DNA from: Deltaproteobacteria bacterium
GTDB taxonomy: Bacteria > Desulfobacterota > Syntrophia > Syntrophales > UBA2185
Length of the DNA stretch: 39,367 nt
Direction: 5' to 3'
NCBI GenBank assembly: GCA_026388545.1
Contig: JAPLJS010000028.1
Coordinates: 1 to 39,367, forward strand
Shown here: in pieces, positions 464 to 9,746 of the stretch
Layout: the number at the start of each line of letters is the position of its first letter
How positions within the stretch are numbered: position 1 is the first letter of the stretch
The notes under the pieces: generated by a model
What the model was told of the DNA's origin: nothing
What the model saw: the letters and a program-made list of their open reading frames with translations, nothing else
Database searches by the model: none
Position numbers and translations under genes: made by a program

Positions 464-3400
464 ATGAAATCCAGGAAGGTTTATGCATTCCTTCTATGCA
501 TTGCTCTATGTAGTAGTGTATTTTTCCCCGGGCTTTTATCTGCTCAGGCGCCTCCCCCCGGCGAGGAAGCGCTGTTTAGTACATCCACAAGCCCCGATGC
601 AATGATTATCCTTGATCTTTCAGGGAGCATGGTCTGGAACCCGGCGGGCGATACCGATATTTGGGGAAATTCTTCATGTTCGGGGACTTTTTATAGTTCC
701 TCCGGTAGCACACATACAACGAACTGCAGCCGTCTTGCCGTCGCCAAACGGGCAATTTTCAGTATCCTCGATGATAACAATGATAATACGATTACTTCAT
801 CGGATGAAGGCAGCCTCGGGGTCAGGATAGGGTACATGCAGTATCGCAACTGCTCATCGGGCACTGAATACTCTTATGCTCGCAGCACGTCATGCACGGC
901 AAATTACACGTACTGTACCGGTACCGGTTGCAGCGGGGGATTCTGCAGCACTTCCAAGACCAACTGCAACACAGACTGCAGTAATGTCACCGGGTGTATC
1001 AGGGTAATTAAAGAAATCGACACCAAATACAGTTCTGTCTATTGTAATAATGCGACGAGCTGTTCCATTACAAGCGGGAGCAGCTGCGGCGCTTTAAGCT
1101 GTGTCAACGGCGCAACGGCAACCGGCGGAACGCCATTGGCAGGGGGTCTTTCTGAGGCGAAAAATTACCTTGACGCCCACAAGGCGATTGATCCTGCCAA
1201 GGACTGCCGCAAGAAATTCATTATCCTGCTTACCGACGGGTCAGATACGCTTGGCTGCGGCGCGGACGGTACGGAATGTGATGATCACCGGTATAAAAAC
1301 AGAAGGGAGTCTGTAGCCAGGGCCAAGGCATTAGCCGACGCGGGGTACCAGCTTTTTGTCATCGGCTTCGGTTCCACCATGCCCCCCTATCTCCAGAACA
1401 CCCTCAACTGGATGGCCTATTATGGAAGAACGGACGATCCCAATACACCCAACTGGTCCTACTTGGGAGGCACAACCGCCTACAATATCCCTATAGGCTG
1501 CGATCCCAACGCAACCCCCCCTGTCACCGCCCCATGCTGCAATCTATCCACGAATCCCACCGCATGCTATCCGGCCGGCGTGACCCAATGCGCTACCGAC
1601 AGTTTAACGGCAACGGCAGCCTGCTATGACTCCACCGCTCCCTATTGTACAAATCCTACAACCTGCCCCGGACATTCAACCAGTAACTATCGCGCCAATT
1701 CTAATGACCCCGGCTTTTCGGGGATAGATCCCGTTGCCGCCTCGCTCACATATATGAGAAATCTGTCTGGGTATGCCTTCATCGCTGCTGACGCCGATCA
1801 ACTGAATGCGGCCCTGAAAACGGCAATCAATATTGTCCGCGAGGCAACCTACTCCTTCACCCAGGCCTCCGTACAGTCATCCCGGACCGCGGATGAAAAT
1901 TATATCTATGAGGCTTCCTTCAAACCCGTCGCGAATGATCCTTTCTGGCAGGGGCATTTAAAAAAGTATAGCATAGACAGCGTTACCGGGGAAGTAGTAA
2001 CTTCTACATTCGTGGATGCGGCGGATATGCTCCGGGCGAGAGATGATACAGTTGACCCAAGGAAAATATATACCTGTGTCGGCTGCACCAGTAACAGTAC
2101 GCTGACAACTTTTACTATCGCACAAAATATAGACCCCAGTTATTTTGGATTCACCACTACGGCAACATCATCACGGAATGAGGTTATCGGTTACATCCGG
2201 GGTAATCCTGCCTATAACCCGGACTGCACAGATGTACCTGTCACGATTACATGCACCGGCAGCACTGTCTTTAAGCTGGGAGATGTGTTCCGGTCATCGC
2301 CGATTACCGTAGGAACGCCTTCGGCCTACTTCGACGACATCCGCGATACAAGTCATGCTTTTAGTTTGTACCGGGAAAATAATTGCCGCGCCTCTGCCTG
2401 TCCGTCTCCGGGTAATGATAACCGCATCATCGTTGTGGGGGCAAACGACGGCCAGTTGCACGCATTCAAAACGAACAATATGTCGGAGGCATGGAGCTTT
2501 ATACCGCCTAATCTCCTGCCGAAGCTGAAAAACATAACCCATACTGCTCATCCCACGGCGCTTACCCACCAATATTTTGTTGATGGGCCGATAACGGTCG
2601 CCGACGTCTGGCTGGGCACAGGTTACGGGACAGTCAAATTAATTTCTGAGTGGAGAACGATGTTGATTTTCGGGGAAGGGAGGGGCAGCTCTCCCAATTT
2701 ATGGAGCTCCTCGTCAACGTGTGACTCCGGCTTTAATTCGATCTACAATGCATCTGCCACACCACCTTATGAGTATTACTGCGGCTACTACGCGCTTGAT
2801 GTCACCGAGACGCTGACTCCGACGTACAAGTGGCACATTGGCGGCAACACCGGAATCAATTCATTGCATGCGCCCTACCTTGGTGATCCGTGGGGCAAGG
2901 TGATGACCGGCAGGGTCAGGATCAACAACCAGGAAAAATGGGTCGGGCTTGTCGGAGCCGGTTACAACGGAGCAGACTGCACAGTCGGCATATGTGACAC
3001 GAGAGGGAAGGGATTTTTCATCATTGATTTAAGTGATGGACAGATCCTCTGGAGCTATACGATGACGCCGGGTGGCACTCAGGCGAATTCGAATATGAAA
3101 TACAGCATACCGGCTTCTGCTACCATTGTGGATACGGATAACGATGGTTTCATCGATAGAGTTTACATAGGGGACCTCGGTGGGAACATATGGCGTTTTA
3201 AATTCTGCACAGCGTATATGTCTGCTCAGCCGGGAGGTTGCGGTGCCTCCACCTGGACAGGGGATCGGCTCTTTGCGGGTCCCACCCCCGTTCAGCCCGT
3301 CTACACAGTTCCAGCCGTTGCCAAAGACGGGGGGGGGAATCTCTGGGTCTACTGGGGCACGGGGAGCAAGGTTGATCCTACCAACAGTACCGGACAGGGT

Positions 3401-3889
3401 ACGTTATTTGCCTTAAAGGACAACGGTACCTCGATGTATAGTACAAGCAATATGGATAATATCTCAGCATTGACCGCAACGTACGATAACGCAAATTCCA
3501 CGAATCAGGGCTATTTTATTACCTTGCCGGGAACGGGAGAGAAGATATTAGCCGATCCCACCGTATTTGGCGGAGTGGTGTATTTTACGACGTTCACACC
3601 CACCACCTCGACCAATTCCTGCGACCAGGGCGGATCTGCGTACCTCTATGCCCTATGGTATACCTCCGGGGCCGGCGCATTCCCCGGTGGACGAAGTATG
3701 TCCATTGGGACCGGGATACCCTCCGCGCCTGTTATTTCGCAGAAGCCGGGAGGGGGAGGATCTGATATCTATGTAACAACAAGCGGCGGCGGGGGAATTA
3801 GCGGAAGCACGCAAAAAGTAGAATTTAATCCTCCAGGAGGAGGCACTCGTACGGACATCCTTTACTGGAAAGATAATCGGATTCAATAG
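464..3889 (+). CDS. pilY1: PilY1-type type IV pilus tip adhesin / assembly factor
   Basis: A 1141-residue secreted protein with a signal peptide at about residues 1-27. A von Willebrand A domain follows, with a complete MIDAS: DLSGS at 51-55, Thr in TPLAGG near 223, TDGSD at 257-261. The C-terminal half (from about 590) is a PilY1 beta-propeller domain, recognisable from VVGANDGQLHAF and from an EF-hand-like calcium loop DTDNDGFIDR starting at residue 890, followed by GDLGGNIWRF. PilY1 primes pilus assembly and controls retraction, adhesion and surface sensing from the tip. The VWA region carries an unusual 17 cysteines between residues 72 and 272, with a second cluster near 346-401. AAGGAGG lies 5 bp before the ATG. 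It follows the PilX-like gene and ends just before an intrinsic terminator, so it closes a + strand minor-pilin operon. Confidence 0.93.
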   Translation: MKSRKVYAFLLCIALCSSVFFPGLLSAQAPPPGEEALFSTSTSPDAMIILDLSGSMVWNPAGDTDIWGNSSCSGTFYSSSGSTHTTNCSRLAVAKRAIFSILDDNNDNTITSSDEGSLGVRIGYMQYRNCSSGTEYSYARSTSCTANYTYCTGTGCSGGFCSTSKTNCNTDCSNVTGCIRVIKEIDTKYSSVYCNNATSCSITSGSSCGALSCVNGATATGGTPLAGGLSEAKNYLDAHKAIDPAKDCRKKFIILLTDGSDTLGCGADGTECDDHRYKNRRESVARAKALADAGYQLFVIGFGSTMPPYLQNTLNWMAYYGRTDDPNTPNWSYLGGTTAYNIPIGCDPNATPPVTAPCCNLSTNPTACYPAGVTQCATDSLTATAACYDSTAPYCTNPTTCPGHSTSNYRANSNDPGFSGIDPVAASLTYMRNLSGYAFIAADADQLNAALKTAINIVREATYSFTQASVQSSRTADENYIYEASFKPVANDPFWQGHLKKYSIDSVTGEVVTSTFVDAADMLRARDDTVDPRKIYTCVGCTSNSTLTTFTIAQNIDPSYFGFTTTATSSRNEVIGYIRGNPAYNPDCTDVPVTITCTGSTVFKLGDVFRSSPITVGTPSAYFDDIRDTSHAFSLYRENNCRASACPSPGNDNRIIVVGANDGQLHAFKTNNMSEAWSFIPPNLLPKLKNITHTAHPTALTHQYFVDGPITVADVWLGTGYGTVKLISEWRTMLIFGEGRGSSPNLWSSSSTCDSGFNSIYNASATPPYEYYCGYYALDVTETLTPTYKWHIGGNTGINSLHAPYLGDPWGKVMTGRVRINNQEKWVGLVGAGYNGADCTVGICDTRGKGFFIIDLSDGQILWSYTMTPGGTQANSNMKYSIPASATIVDTDNDGFIDRVYIGDLGGNIWRFKFCTAYMSAQPGGCGASTWTGDRLFAGPTPVQPVYTVPAVAKDGGGNLWVYWGTGSKVDPTNSTGQGTLFALKDNGTSMYSTSNMDNISALTATYDNANSTNQGYFITLPGTGEKILADPTVFGGVVYFTTFTPTTSTNSCDQGGSAYLYALWYTSGAGAFPGGRSMSIGTGIPSAPVISQKPGGGGSDIYVTTSGGGGISGSTQKVEFNPPGGGTRTDILYWKDNRIQ

Positions 3890-4113: not shown

Positions 4114-4146
4114 AGAGCAAGCGGGTGTTTGCGGCCTGCTCTTTTT
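4114..4146 (+). terminator. Weak second hairpin with T run in the convergent gap
   Basis: AGAGCA at 4114 pairs with TGCTCT at 4137, followed by TTTTT, in the gap between the convergent pilY1 and TPR genes. It could back up the main terminator. The stem is short, so this is tentative. Nothing else is visible in 3976-4113. Confidence 0.3.
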
Positions 4147-4918
4147 AACGCCTTGGCTCAATGGCATCGAGGCTTTTTCTGGCTGCGATTCCCAGTTCCG
4201 AATCCGGTGTTATTCCGATAATGGCCTTGAACTCCGCCTTGGCCTTCTCCGCATCATGCAGCTTAATATAACACTGCCCTAACCAGTAGCGGGATTCTAA
4301 TAAGGATGGAGCCGCCTTCGAGGATGCCTTGAAATAGTGAACCGCCTTTTCAAAATTCCCCTGGGCATAACAGGTTATCCCCATGTGAAGGTCTATCAGG
4401 GGGTGAGGAACCGTAGTCGGTCTCCTGTTTTTCGCATCCTGATACGTGTCAAGGGCCTTCGGGTAATCCTTCTTTCCATGATAGGCCATACCCATGTTGA
4501 ACAGCGCTTTATCGGGAGTTTCATAGAGAATATTGGAAAGCGCGTTTTTAAATGATTCTATGGCATTATCCCAGAGCCCCATTTCCAGATAGATTGCCCC
4601 CAGGAAATTATGAACCTCCGAATAATCGGACCTTAACGACAATGCCTTCTTGAATTCATTGACAGCGTTATCATTGAGCCCTTTTTTGTAGTACGACATG
4701 CCGATATGATAATGGATCTTTGGGTCCTTTGGCGCGAGTTTTTCCGCCTGTAAAAATTCCTTTAATGCATCATTGGTGCGTTCAGATCCTAAATAGGCAA
4801 TCCCGATATTCAGGTGAGAATCTGCCTGTTCCTGATTCCAAGGGCTCGTTGCACATGCCGTTACGGTAAGAAGAAATACCATGACAGCAGCGTATCTAAG
4901 TATTTTTAAATTGATCAT
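4145..4918 (-). CDS. TPR-repeat lipoprotein, PilF/PilW (pilotin)-like
   Basis: A 257-residue protein with a lipoprotein signal: hydrophobic segment at 9-20 and lipobox VTAC with Cys22. At least five tetratricopeptide repeats follow (for example IGIAYLGSERTNDALKEF and IGMSYYKKGLNDNAVNEF), ending near residue 257. Outer-membrane TPR lipoproteins of this layout (PilF, PilW, Tgl) help the PilQ secretin multimerise and insert. It is the last gene of the pilMNOPQ cluster, 187 bp after pilQ, which supports the pilotin role. The intervening gap holds a hairpin (5032-5058). TPR proteins diverge fast, so the family call rests on lipobox, repeat number and context. Confidence 0.8.
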   Translation of the reverse strand: MINLKILRYAAVMVFLLTVTACATSPWNQEQADSHLNIGIAYLGSERTNDALKEFLQAEKLAPKDPKIHYHIGMSYYKKGLNDNAVNEFKKALSLRSDYSEVHNFLGAIYLEMGLWDNAIESFKNALSNILYETPDKALFNMGMAYHGKKDYPKALDTYQDAKNRRPTTVPHPLIDLHMGITCYAQGNFEKAVHYFKASSKAAPSLLESRYWLGQCYIKLHDAEKAKAEFKAIIGITPDSELGIAARKSLDAIEPRR

Positions 4919-5105: not shown

Positions 5106-6851
5106 TTATCCCCCTCCTTTTGGCTTTTCGGATTTTTCTCCCACAGTGTCGCTTTTTATGATCTTTGGGGTGATAAAAACCATGAGCTGAGTTCTTTTTT
5201 TCGTGGTTGCTTCAGATTTGAACAACCACCCCAAGACCGGTATTTTGGAGAGCCATGGGATACCTGTTTCTGACGTCTGTTCTGAAGTCTTTAATATTCC
5301 CCCGATGACAATCGTATCTCCATCCTGAACGACAATTTTAGACTCTACCTCGCTTTTATTTATCGGAGGATTTCCGGATAACTGGGCGGCTTTTGTATAG
5401 TCCGCAAAATCGTTTGTCGCTTTAATCTCCATTGAGATAGTATCGTCGGGCGTAATTTTCGGCTTGACATCCAGTCTCAGGACGGCTTCCTTAAAGGTAA
5501 TACTCCTGTTTCCGTCCTTATCTATGGTAATGTAGGGAACCTCCTCACCCTGTTTGATGGTTGCCTTTACATTATCCATGGTAGTAACCTTCGGTGATGA
5601 AATGATTTTCCCCTGGCCCGTAGTTTCAAGAGCCGCGATCTGGGCTTCGAGAACGGCATTGGCGCCTCCCAGTATGAGACCGAAAGTAGGCGATGCGATT
5701 GACGCCGGATAATTGAGAGCAGCAGACTGTATTACTTTTCCATCTGTGGTTTGAAATGGAATAGCGGACGGATACCCCCACGTCATGCCGCGAGATTGAA
5801 CCGTGTTTGTTCCCGCAGTCAACCCATAGGAATAATCGCCGGCCCTGTTGTAGGACACGCCTCCCCATGTAACACCGAGGTTCCTGACGAATTCATCCGT
5901 TGCCTCTATGATTTTCGCTTCTATGGATACCTGCCGCAGTTTCCCCTTTTCTTCCAATCGTTCCTGCTCTGCCTTTTTGGAAAGTATCTCCGCCTTGAGA
6001 CGGTCTTCTTCGCCCGACTTCCTGTCAGCCTCGTCTTTTTTCATTCTTTCGTAGGTTACGACACTGATAACATCGCCCATCTGCTTTTTAGCAAGACCAT
6101 GGACATCCAAAATGGTATCAAGGGCCTGATCCCAGGGGACCTTTTTCATATGCACAGTCATGTTTCCCTTGACATCATCACCGGAGACAATAGTGATTCC
6201 TCCCTCCTCGGCGAGTAATCTCAGGACGGCCCGTATAGGTGCATCCTGAAAATCAAGGGATATCTTACGACCTGCATACTTCGTTGGGCCTGTGCCTTTT
6301 TCGACGGTCTGGCCCGTCTCCTTTTTGGTTACTACTTCTGTGGAAAACCCCGGCGCTTTTTGATCGGCTGCAGGCATTTTGCCCTCGATGCTGCCTGTAT
6401 TAAAATCAATAAGGACATTCTGCCCCGCCTGACTGACACTGTAAGGTACACGCTCTCTTAACGCTATCGTGATGAGGGCCCAGTTCTGACCTTCGGTTGT
6501 TTTCTGGGACGGAACGGCATTGATTACATTGGAAAGCTTCCCCTCACCTAAAGGTCGCTTGAGTTCCCCAGGCACAAACATATTTGCCATTTTTACCACC
6601 ACGGCATTACCCGCCAGGGCTTCGATAGTAACACCGGATTGTTTGGATACGACGATGGTGATGCGCTCTTTGCCTTTTATCTTTTCAAAGGTAATGTTTT
6701 CCAGGTATCCGAAGTCTGTCTTCTGTACCTGAGGCGCGGAAACCTCAGGGGGATTCGTCGCCTCCGGCGGCGCGCTCCCTGCGTACTCGACGTTACTAAA
6801 AAACATTACAAAAGCAATCAAGAATACAATCCATGGTAGTTTCTTTTTCAT
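5106..6851 (-). CDS. pilQ: Type IV pilus secretin PilQ (short form)
   Basis: The outer-membrane channel through which the pilus passes; 581 residues, shorter than most PilQ proteins (about 700-900). Signal peptide at about 1-26. An AMIN-type peptidoglycan-binding domain lies at about 45-150. An STN/N0 domain lies at about 197-265 (ISLDFQDAPIRAVLRLLAEE). The C-terminal secretin domain runs from about 307 to 565 with the signature IPWLSKIPVLGWLF at 531-544. Between N0 and the secretin core there is only a charged, helix-prone stretch of about 37 residues, where PilQ normally has the N1 (secretin_N) domain. The start ATG overlaps the pilP stop (ATGA), so the two are translationally coupled. It is fifth in the pilMNOPQ order. 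Confidence 0.95.
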   Translation of the reverse strand: MKKKLPWIVFLIAFVMFFSNVEYAGSAPPEATNPPEVSAPQVQKTDFGYLENITFEKIKGKERITIVVSKQSGVTIEALAGNAVVVKMANMFVPGELKRPLGEGKLSNVINAVPSQKTTEGQNWALITIALRERVPYSVSQAGQNVLIDFNTGSIEGKMPAADQKAPGFSTEVVTKKETGQTVEKGTGPTKYAGRKISLDFQDAPIRAVLRLLAEEGGITIVSGDDVKGNMTVHMKKVPWDQALDTILDVHGLAKKQMGDVISVVTYERMKKDEADRKSGEEDRLKAEILSKKAEQERLEEKGKLRQVSIEAKIIEATDEFVRNLGVTWGGVSYNRAGDYSYGLTAGTNTVQSRGMTWGYPSAIPFQTTDGKVIQSAALNYPASIASPTFGLILGGANAVLEAQIAALETTGQGKIISSPKVTTMDNVKATIKQGEEVPYITIDKDGNRSITFKEAVLRLDVKPKITPDDTISMEIKATNDFADYTKAAQLSGNPPINKSEVESKIVVQDGDTIVIGGILKTSEQTSETGIPWLSKIPVLGWLFKSEATTKKRTQLMVFITPKIIKSDTVGEKSEKPKGGG

Positions 6852-7405
6852 GGTTTTTCCTCACCTTCTTCTTTGCGAAGCTTCATCGTGATTCTCTTTG
6901 TCTTCGTCTTTCTGGCATCCCCTTCTTTGATCTTTTCTTCGACGATGACTCGGTCTGCGAGTATCCCCACTACCCTGCCACCGTGTAGACCAATGGCGGT
7001 TCCCAAATAAAGGGGATAGAATTTGCCCTTAACATCTGTGACAATGGCTATTTTGGAAGACTCATCACCTGCAATACCGACAAGCCTGAATTGATCAGTA
7101 CCCGCCCTTTGCAGGGGGAATATGGGAAGGGGCTGTACTTTTTCCAGCTTCTTTTTAGCGCTGATCTCCTTATCTATGAAAGGTTTAAAAGGGTCCACCT
7201 TTCCGACAGGATTGTATTTATATGCGGGGGCTGTCTTCAAATCGGCGGCCTTTGTTTCCACCGCCTTTACATCAGTCCCTTTAGTACCTGCCGCTTTTGG
7301 ATCGGCAGCGGTAATCTCTGATGCCCATAGTAGAGCGATCAAAGCCAGAAGTATTATTGTTATGCAAGCTGCAGTTCTATTTTTTTTCATCAGCTTTTTT
7401 CTCAT
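6848..7405 (-). CDS. pilP: Type IV pilus assembly protein PilP
   Basis: PilP links the PilN/PilO inner-membrane complex to the PilQ secretin. The 185-residue protein has an N-terminal hydrophobic segment (about 13-30), a Lys/Ala-rich spacer, then NPVGKVDPFKPFI, the conserved unstructured PilP element that contacts PilN/PilO. The C-terminal beta domain shows LVGIAGDESSKIAIV and GKFYPLYLGTAIG, typical of PilP/GspC homology regions. PilP is usually a lipoprotein, but no good lipobox cysteine is seen here, so it may be a signal-anchored form. The gene overlaps the pilO end by 29 bp; a second ATG at 7390 (residue 6) would shorten the overlap, and neither has a strong ribosome site. Confidence 0.9.
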   Translation of the reverse strand: MRKKLMKKNRTAACITIILLALIALLWASEITAADPKAAGTKGTDVKAVETKAADLKTAPAYKYNPVGKVDPFKPFIDKEISAKKKLEKVQPLPIFPLQRAGTDQFRLVGIAGDESSKIAIVTDVKGKFYPLYLGTAIGLHGGRVVGILADRVIVEEKIKEGDARKTKTKRITMKLRKEEGEEKP

Positions 7406-8066
7406 CGAGTTTTTCCAGGAACATGTAAGTTTTAATCATACAGGACGTGTTTATATACCGTCCCCGCCCTTTTATATCCTTCCCGTCCGACATGGAGATA
7501 TCTTCAATATTGATAATCCTGGGAAGCTTCGCAACCTTCTCAAAAAAAACAACGATACTATGAAAGCCGCCGGTGACCGTTACCTTAACAGGAATCTCGT
7601 CATAGAATTTTTCCTCAACTTGTTTTGGCGCAGCTCCTTTGGTATCGGGGGCTTTCTTGTCGGGCGGTTTTGCTCCAGCCGGTTGTGTCACCGGGGGTTT
7701 CTTTTCAGATTGTTTTGGTTCGAACAAGATAAAATCGATGCCGGAATCTTTTCCCGCTTGCGCAACAGCATATAAGAGACCCGGTATCTCACGTTGATCG
7801 GGAAGTTTTGTCAGGGCTATCCGTAGTGTTTCCCGCAGGGCATTAACTTCTCTTACGTACTTTTCTTTTTGAGCCGCCAGGCGCTCTTTCTCTGTAACCT
7901 GCACCTGAATCTCAGATAACTTCGTTTCAAGAGTTCCTTTCGTCTCTATAGATGATTGCAAAAAGAGAGAATAATCAATACCCCCTAAAAGCAAGAAAAA
8001 TACGAGGATAATCAGTCCTTTACGTTTTGGAGGCATCTTTTTGATGTCGTCGAGGGTGATAGCCAT
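7377..8066 (-). CDS. pilO: Type IV pilus inner-membrane protein PilO
   Basis: 229 residues: a short cytoplasmic tail, one membrane helix at about 17-33 (GLIILVFFLLLGGIDYSLF), a coiled coil at about 40-85, then a ferredoxin-like periplasmic domain. PilO forms heterodimers with PilN and holds PilP. A Lys/Pro-rich insert at about 116-148 (KQSEKKPPVTQPAGAKPPDK and following) interrupts the periplasmic domain and may be a flexible linker. It starts 4 bp after pilN and overlaps pilP. Placement between pilN and pilP in canonical order makes the assignment firm despite the low conservation of the family. Confidence 0.92.
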   Translation of the reverse strand: MAITLDDIKKMPPKRKGLIILVFFLLLGGIDYSLFLQSSIETKGTLETKLSEIQVQVTEKERLAAQKEKYVREVNALRETLRIALTKLPDQREIPGLLYAVAQAGKDSGIDFILFEPKQSEKKPPVTQPAGAKPPDKKAPDTKGAAPKQVEEKFYDEIPVKVTVTGGFHSIVVFFEKVAKLPRIINIEDISMSDGKDIKGRGRYINTSCMIKTYMFLEKLDEKKADEKK

Positions 8067-8070
8067 GGAG

Positions 8071-8619
8071 TTACAATCCCTTCTTTTTCACGCACGATAT
8101 TACAAATTGCTGCAGTTTAACACCAGAGATCTCTTTTTCCTTGGTGGATACCAAATCGACCGATTTGATAAAGGTGGAACCTGCCAGGTTTTTCATAAAG
8201 TGTGCAACGGCAATATTGCTTCTTGCTATACCCTCAATAGTGATATCTGCACCCTTCTCAGATAGTTTTTCAAGCCAGACATCCTTGATAGGAACCATCG
8301 TCGTTAGTTCATCCAGCATACGAACGGGCGCCAGACGGTTTTCTTCGAGGTTATTGATGATGGCTAGTTTTTTCTCAAGGATCGCCTTGTCGTTCTTATA
8401 CAGTTCTATATCGCCGATGATTTTCGTCAGAGACGCGAGCTTATCTTCCTGAATTTTTATATTTTTTTCGAGTGTTCCGATACTCATAAAGAAATAAAGA
8501 TGAACAGAGCCAATAATGAGGAGAAAACCCACAAAGGCAAGGGCAATGATCACAATCTGGCGTGTCAGATCCTCCTTTTTTTCCTTTTCCCGATAGGGAA
8601 GAAGATTAATTCTGATCAT
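8071..8619 (-). CDS. pilN: Type IV pilus inner-membrane protein PilN
   Basis: 182 residues, beginning MIRINLLPYREKEKK. The INLLPYR peptide is the conserved PilN tail that docks in the groove of PilM. One membrane helix (about 23-48) precedes a coiled coil and a periplasmic ferredoxin-like domain that pairs with PilO. Its ATG overlaps the pilM stop (ATGA), giving tight translational coupling of the two interacting proteins. Confidence 0.94.
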   Translation of the reverse strand: MIRINLLPYREKEKKEDLTRQIVIIALAFVGFLLIIGSVHLYFFMSIGTLEKNIKIQEDKLASLTKIIGDIELYKNDKAILEKKLAIINNLEENRLAPVRMLDELTTMVPIKDVWLEKLSEKGADITIEGIARSNIAVAHFMKNLAGSTFIKSVDLVSTKEKEISGVKLQQFVISCVKKKGL

Positions 8620-9746
8620 TTGTCACCTACTTTTCTTAGTGCCAGCCCTACTCCGACTGAGGCGATTGGTGCAATATCTTCAATTGTTGACGGATCAATG
8701 GCTTTTTCATTGTAACCGATTTTTCTAAAAGGATTCGCAATTTCTGCTTCAACACCGAGCCTCTGAGTCAAGTCGTTTACGATACCGGGGATTTTTGCAC
8801 TTCCGCCGGAAAGGAGAATATGCTTTATATATTCCCCTCCGTAAGTCGACCTGAAATAATCGATAGACCTCTCAATTTCTGCACAGATAGGTTCGGCATG
8901 AGAAAGGAGGCTTTCTCGGAATTCTCTTTCGGCCGATTCGCCGCCGCCGGGACCTTCGATTTTGATTCTTTCCGCCTCTTCAAATGTCACCCCCATCTTC
9001 TGCTGAATCGCTTCCGTTATGGAATTTCCCGCGAGAGTAAAATCTCTGGTAAAGATGGAAGCGCCGCCTTTGAGGACGTTTATGTTCGTGATACTCGCTC
9101 CGATATTGATGAGTACGGCAATTTCGTTCTCTTCAAATTCATAATTCTCTTCATACATGGTTTCGAGTGCAAAGGAATCCACATCCATAATCACAGGTAA
9201 ATATCCCGCCTGTTGTATGGCATCGGTATAACCAGTGACAATATCTTTTTTCGATGCCACAATAATAACATCCATCTGATTGGGATTGAATTCATTTTCA
9301 CCGAGGATTTGAAAATCGTAGCTCACTGCATCCATGTCATCAAAAGGCAGATATTTGCCTGCTTCATCTTTTATCAGCTCACGCAAATCTCCTTCATCCA
9401 TCGTGGGAAAGTTTACTTTTTTTACAATAACGGAGTGTCCCGAAATAGAGGTTACAATTTCCTTCCTTTTGCACCCGGATTGTTTGAACAGTTCTTTAAT
9501 TTTCAAGGCCAATTCCTGCTGCTCCACGGGCACACCATCGACGATTACACCCTTTTCCAGGGGCATTTGGGAAAACCGGGAAAGAATGTATCCCTTTGGG
9601 GTTTCCTGTATTTCAGCAAGTTTTATAGAACTAGATCCTATGTCAAGCCCAACCAGTTGCTTACTTCCCGGCAACAGGTCGATCTTTAAGAAATCGAGCC
9701 CGATCATCTTTTTACCACGTGCGAACAGATTTTTAATGTCTAACAT
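8616..9746 (-). CDS. pilM: Type IV pilus cytoplasmic ATPase-like protein PilM
   Basis: 376 residues with an actin/FtsA fold. The phosphate-1 motif LVGLDIGSSSIKLAEI lies near residues 32-47, with a phosphate-2-like INIGASITN and the adenosine motif ILLSGGSAKIPGI towards the C terminus. PilM binds ATP and the N-terminal peptide of PilN, linking the cytoplasmic motor side to the alignment complex. The N terminus is about 30 residues longer than usual before the first strand; a later ATG (M14) is possible. It starts 33 bp after the FtsB-like gene, on the same strand. Confidence 0.95.
   Translation of the reverse strand: MLDIKNLFARGKKMIGLDFLKIDLLPGSKQLVGLDIGSSSIKLAEIQETPKGYILSRFSQMPLEKGVIVDGVPVEQQELALKIKELFKQSGCKRKEIVTSISGHSVIVKKVNFPTMDEGDLRELIKDEAGKYLPFDDMDAVSYDFQILGENEFNPNQMDVIIVASKKDIVTGYTDAIQQAGYLPVIMDVDSFALETMYEENYEFEENEIAVLINIGASITNINVLKGGASIFTRDFTLAGNSITEAIQQKMGVTFEEAERIKIEGPGGGESAEREFRESLLSHAEPICAEIERSIDYFRSTYGGEYIKHILLSGGSAKIPGIVNDLTQRLGVEAEIANPFRKIGYNEKAIDPSTIEDIAPIASVGVGLALRKVGDK

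Follow-up and report, generated by a model that had tools for sequence, protein, structure and literature searches.

A Syntrophales variant of the secretin PilQ without the N1 domain and with a predicted charged helix between N0 and the core

The pilQ locus and the layout of its product

The window, that is, the whole 39,367-nucleotide stretch of DNA analysed, contains a pilM-N-O-P-Q operon (Table 1), in which the PilM, PilN, PilO and PilP genes, identified with Pfam, lie upstream of an intact pilQ reading frame; directly downstream is a gene for a TPR lipoprotein. Close to the operon, on the opposite strand (464-3889, +), is a gene for a putative tip adhesin of 1141 residues with a weak match to the PilC/PilY1 type (NF040838, 7.6e-7, below the cut-off). 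The source genome also carries two PilT-type ATPases, several PilB-like ATPases and 14 pilin-type signals, and thus gives no hint of a dead pilus system. The predicted role of the window PilQ is that of a ring-shaped multimer through which the pilus passes the outer membrane.

Table 1. Genes of the pil locus and parts of the PilQ protein, with coordinates in the window
Feature	Position	Strand	Evidence
pilM	8616..9746	-	Pfam 4e-70
pilN	8071..8619	-	Pfam 3.9e-22
pilO	7377..8066	-	Pfam 1.1e-33
pilP	6848..7405	-	Pfam PilP 4.7e-9
pilQ, 581 aa, N1-less type IV pilus secretin	5106..6851	-	TIGR02515 338.7 bits (cut-off 284.35)
PilQ AMIN, residues 48-151	6399..6710	-	AF2; VIA-align to AmiC and PilQ B2
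PilQ N0 (STN), residues 197-265	6057..6263	-	Pfam; phmmer to PilQ N0 (4ar0)
PilQ predicted continuous charged alpha-helix, residues 267-304	5940..6053	-	AF2 (low confidence), composition, charge pairs, length quantisation
PilQ secretin core, residues 305-566	5154..5939	-	Pfam Secretin 407-566; phmmer to PilQ cores from 304/305
TPR lipoprotein resembling PilW/Tgl secretin pilotins	4145..4918	-	NCBIfam Tgl 2.2e-27, TIGR02521 3.8e-25, both below cut-offs

Here, N1 denotes the KH-like domain described by the Pfam family Secretin_N. The same domain is called N1 in work on Neisseria (PMC3441751) and N3 in work on V. cholerae (PMC7545093). The first-pass annotation of this gene had placed AMIN at about residues 45-150, N0/STN at 197-265 and the start of the core at about 307, and had proposed that N1 is missing. 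The placements of AMIN and N0 agree with our results. AF2 modelled AMIN with a pLDDT of about 80, and a VIA-align fold search matched it to the AMIN domain of AmiC (Z 13.5, rmsd 2.5, 105 residues) and to the B2 domain of PilQ (Z 12.5, rmsd 2.3, 102 residues); these matches barely cover N0 or the helix and bear on AMIN. The Pfam AMIN model did not match the window protein, although the AF2 fold shows the domain. At E<=10, Pfam recognized STN at 221-265, GspD N0 at 199-258 and Secretin at 407-566, and phmmer aligned N0 to that of PilQ. The core begins slightly earlier than had been put, at residue 305, as the phmmer alignments indicate.

We searched 155 Syntrophales genomes, obtaining a match in 126, and scanned 178 distinct secretin proteins from this search, from further relatives and from phylum samples. 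In 113 of them N0 is joined to the core by at most 40 residues (N1-less), in 64 the gap between N0 and the core is 77-171 residues (N1-containing), and one is a fragment without N0. Left out were a broken frame that is probably a thirteenth N1-containing PilQ of the order (L148), the truncated L035, L076 and L077, the other secretins L002, L004, L005, L006, L007 and L008, and copies of loci already included, among them L001 and L075.

The proposed absence of N1 held up in Pfam searches, with a custom N1 HMM and in alignments to solved PilQs. The Secretin_N search suggested in the first-pass annotation gave no match in the window PilQ at E<=10, and the Pfam model was likewise absent from all 11 members of the sequence set A2 (A2 and both AF2 predictions exclude L045, a sequence containing X). 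The custom HMM, built from the N1 stretch of N1-containing relatives, found all 64 of these proteins below E 1e-3, most of them being its training rows, and gave a significant match in none of the 113 N1-less proteins, the best domain E being 0.18 and outside the linker. When the window PilQ is aligned with that of P. aeruginosa, 28 residues (275 to 304) stand opposite 83 (370 to 454) between two matched pieces. Provision of N1 by a separate protein was considered and rejected: Secretin_N matches in the source genome are confined to the other three secretin reading frames, being above the cut-off in those of contigs C99 and C114 (two copies in the latter) and weak in that of C27 (E 0.28). A pseudogene or assembly error was rejected as well, the layout being identical in 113 proteins.

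Judged by its sequence, the window protein is a variant of PilQ and not a standard PilQ, because Secretin_N, part of the dominant PilQ architecture in the literature, is absent; in a survey of 197 secretins the majority are described as having it (PMC7545093). As its score nevertheless lies above the PilQ cut-off, the absence of the domain would go unnoticed in automatic annotation.

The charged linker and its lengths

For the stretch between N0 and the core, the monomer structure prediction that the first-pass annotation had called for was run on the full-length protein with 11 sequences. AF2 predicted a single helix, residues 267-304, leading from N0 to the first core strand, with low confidence (mean pLDDT 52.6; about 55-67 in the helix); a prediction for a fragment placed the helix at 267-302 and was no better than the full-length one (mean pLDDT 47.8). 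Residues 268-304 had been described as almost all Lys, Glu, Asp or Arg; the stretch is indeed charge-rich, but with 24 such residues out of 37 the wording was somewhat too strong. Across the 72 linkers of 40 residues, these four residues make up 57%, and opposite charges are paired 10.2 times at i,i+3 and 11.2 times at i,i+4, compared to about 6 in shuffled sequences. Gly303, near the end of the helix, is kept in 71 of the 72. No hydrophobic helical period was found in these linkers (p about 0.5), and a classic amphipathic coiled coil was accordingly rejected. A charge-rich composition, i,i+4 pairs and the lack of a hydrophobic stripe are traits that these 72 linkers share with single alpha-helix (ER/K) domains. 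Type IV pilus secretins have been described as having, in general, a helix after N0 (PMC3441751), and the charged stretch appears to be an extended form of it; in the N1-less PilQs, the post-N0 helix would be lengthened so as to run straight to the core.

The linker lengths in the 113 proteins are 40 (72 proteins), 36 (2), 33 (2), 29 (7), 22 (27), 21 (2) and 18 (1) residues. Five of the six lengths other than 40 differ from it by whole turns (36, 33, 29, 22 and 18), and 21 does not. To count length changes by parsimony, we used one quick tree of the 113 proteins, from which the linker had been left out, and took as whole turns those changes that differ from a multiple of 3.6 by no more than half a residue. 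At least 12 changes are required, a small number that is partly ambiguous (for example, in a regain of 18 residues in family f16), and 11 of the 12 are whole turns. The share expected under a uniform null of 1-22 residues, a null of our choosing, is 6/22 (p 5.6e-6). On the same tree, among changes of up to 22 residues, whole turns account for 19 of 71 in the AMIN-N0 linker (Fisher 3e-5) and for 14 of 78 in the core and tail (Fisher 1e-6), and the resultant length at 3.6 is 0.87 for the linker versus 0.02 and 0.13 for the controls. The commonest changes are those of 11 and 18 residues. The sole exception, from 22 to 21, occurs in the close relatives L053 and L128, whose helices lack the Gly near the end and carry a proline there. 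In a descriptive comparison intended as a control for register, the N0-to-N1 distances of N1-containing relatives are more scattered than the N1-less linker lengths. The length changes by whole turns point to an unbroken helix anchored at its two ends, and we infer that the linker is a straight helical strut held in a set rotation.

The 21- and 22-residue forms (e.g. L051, L053, L058 and L060) carry a lipoprotein-type signal in 21 of 29 cases by a crude pattern, with four more by eye, and the 40-residue forms in 4 of 72, two of which look false; these are raw counts that ignore kinship. Four PilQs (L062, L063, L064 and L065), of 406-441 residues, apparently lack AMIN as well as N1 and consist only of N0, helix and core.

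Identity within the linkers is raised at lag 7 (0.197 vs 0.109 in shuffled sequences) and lag 14 (0.176 vs 0.11), which amounts to a weak heptad repeat. This peak would suit an arrangement in which the helices either pack against their neighbours, forming a continuous barrel or funnel, or are laid flat or at an angle, with N0 close under the core and a short vestibule; whole-turn changes fit a packed helix as well as they fit a strut, and the linker has only 21 or 22 residues in 29 of the 113 proteins. However, packing normally needs a hydrophobic stripe, none of which is present at 3.5-3.67 residues (p about 0.5), and the many charge pairs at i,i+3 and i,i+4 are what isolated helices typically show, so that we consider a packed arrangement rather unlikely. 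The heptad repeat could also favour indels of seven residues, and the length steps would then reflect slippage between repeats within the linker, at the DNA or protein level, with no structural meaning. Slippage is a poor account of them, because identity at lags 11 (0.082) and 18 (0.078) is below that of the shuffled sequences although changes of these sizes are the commonest, and we regard it as distinctly improbable. The strut remains the reading that we prefer.

Distribution and probable loss and regain of the N1 domain

All 113 N1-less proteins among the 177 classified come from the order Syntrophales, whereas the 64 N1-containing ones comprise 12 PilQs of the order, 22 proteins of a paralogous type from the order and 30 from outside. 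The order thus yielded 125 intact PilQs, 113 N1-less and 12 N1-containing, and the PilQs fetched from outside it and classified were all N1-containing (30/30). A search of 395 genomes of one phylum at E<=1e-45 gave a match in 100, outside the order essentially in the core only, and revealed no N1-less PilQ outside the order. A PilP gene is present in 109 of the 113 N1-less loci, and PilP and PilO genes are present in all 12 N1-containing PilQ loci of the order; by eye, PilP length does not differ clearly between the two kinds of locus. Syntrophus aciditrophicus is probably a member of the N1-less family. This bacterium has been reported to make conductive pili (PMC6771412).

The core and the N-terminal part of the N1-containing PilQs give discordant trees. 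A core tree obtained by a quick method comprised 115 cores, namely 59 of the 113 N1-less rows, 20 of the 22 paralogues, 24 outside rows and the 12 N1-containing PilQs. A branch with SH-aLRT 99 separates off the 59 N1-less rows, whose neighbours are 22 of the 24 outside rows, and together with these 22 they are set apart from the paralogue (branch 100); the 12 N1-containing PilQs of the order group with the 20 paralogues and two outside rows (SH-aLRT 100). By contrast, a careful tree of AMIN+N0 from 68 rows has the same 12 scattered among the N1-less rows, with 5 changes (4-5 in bootstraps), and family f14 groups together with its members of both kinds (100/98). AU tests rejected the grouping of N1-containing cores with N1-less cores at a modest p of 0.0335, and the grouping of the N0 domains of these PilQs with the paralogue at p 9.9e-5. 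All 12 lie in pilO-P-Q loci. The discordance of the trees, combined with these loci, suggests that N1 and core were swapped in at the existing locus, and more than once; for family f14, which has both forms, this would mean either that the swap took place twice or that one swap was later reversed.

The trees suggest that the N1-containing PilQs of the order consist of the native AMIN and N0 joined to the N1 and core of a paralogous pilus secretin. These apparent domain-swap PilQs are L066, L067, L068, L070-L073, L146, L147 and L149-L151, of families f9, f11 and f14. The trees further suggest a single loss of N1, close to the base of the order, after which the N1-plus-core part of the paralogous secretin would have replaced the native core several times. 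Conversely, the N1-containing PilQs of f9, f11 and f14 might be ancestral and N1 lost several times, and the AMIN+N0 tree alone cannot separate gain from loss; we give this little credence, as the N1-less cores form one clade with other PilQs, the N1-containing cores fall with the paralogue and the AU test points the same way. That N1 is present but diverged past detection, or that the gene of the source genome is damaged, chimeric or misassembled, is close to refuted: although Pfam likewise misses the AMIN that the fold model finds, a linker of at most 40 residues in 113 of 113 proteins leaves no room for a domain whose Secretin_N match spans 68 residues (300-367) in L066, an N1-containing PilQ of the same order, and the N1-less form occurs in open frames from many genomes. 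L066 aligns across its N1 stretch to PilQs of six distinct PDB sequences.

A secretin of the presumed donor type is found in the source genome itself, in a second pilus cluster on contig C99. The cluster (L075, G000:C99:30000-42000) encodes a 551-residue, N1-containing, lipoprotein-like secretin, a 626-residue PilM-like fusion and a sigma-54 regulator, together with PilO-like, PilP-like, ATPase and PilC-like proteins, several of these names being given by eye.

Proposed architecture and comparison with known systems

Taken together, these results are translated into an architecture that we hold to be probable, namely that of a PilQ orthologue without the KH-like N1 ring, in which charged helical struts standing in register take its place, with one loss of N1 and several regains by swap. 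Under this model, the helix usually found between N0 and N1 would lead instead from N0 straight into the core, as one unbent charged helix. With 12-15 of these struts standing in a circle where the N1 ring would otherwise be, the ring of N0 and PilP would be held beneath the gate. Both helix ends would sit in rings, each helix keeping its rotational register, and steps of whole turns (4, 7, 11, 18 or 22 residues) would therefore be the only length changes allowed.

The helix of V. cholerae PilQ measures 32 Å (PMC7545093), and the N3 ring can be put at about 28 Å, from 25% of 113 Å in BfpB (PMC12114550). A helix of 38 residues would be about 57 Å long, compared to an estimated 60 Å or so for helix and N3 ring, and could therefore span the same distance if upright. 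In the 40-residue form, the struts would thus replace the helix and the ring while the distance of N0 and PilP to the gate is kept, and the shorter periplasmic vestibule anticipated in the first-pass annotation is not supported for this form; in the 22-residue form, N0 and PilP would come closer to the gate by about 27 Å. The docking of PilP, the inner-membrane partner, on N0, which had been put forward as a consequence of the missing N1, is not one, since PilP-N0 binding is already standard: in an NMR titration of the N. meningitidis proteins, PilP is reported to bind N0 and not N1 (PMC3441751).

Beyond the missing domain noticed at first, the analysis adds the extension of the post-N0 helix, its quantised length and the probable regain of N1 in sister lineages. 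Whether the full picture holds we rate as about an even chance: it would mean an order-wide set of pilus machines without the KH-like ring, which was described in 2025 as present, with N0, in every secretin to that date, having a cage of single charged helices that changes length by whole turns, and sister lineages that regained the ring by taking in half of another secretin. The N1-less clade makes the role of the ring directly testable, with natural N1-containing and N1-less versions in sister species. In the literature searched, we found no report of a PilQ without N1.

The pilMNOPQ operon is shared with V. cholerae, P. aeruginosa, N. meningitidis and M. xanthus. The PilQs solved from these species (6W6M, PMC7545093; 6VE2; 4AV2; 3JC8, respectively) have AMIN, N0, the post-N0 helix and the core in common with the window PilQ, but they carry N1/N3 between helix and core, whereas the window protein lacks it and its predicted helix is longer. 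The paralogue on contig C99 of the same genome (L003) likewise scores as TIGR02515 (331 bits) and has N0 and a core; unlike the window PilQ, it has N1 and no detected AMIN, and belongs to the second pilus cluster. Single alpha-helix (ER/K) domains are similarly charged, salt-bridged and bridge two domains (PMC5347031, PMC4183817), although the examples described there are eukaryotic or designed proteins, none of them a secretin. A reduced set of periplasmic domains is also described for the RcpA/CpaC secretins of Tad pili (8ODN, PMC10499894; PMC13170226); these, however, have a VirB9-like domain instead of N0, and CpaC has been modelled with an N3 domain.
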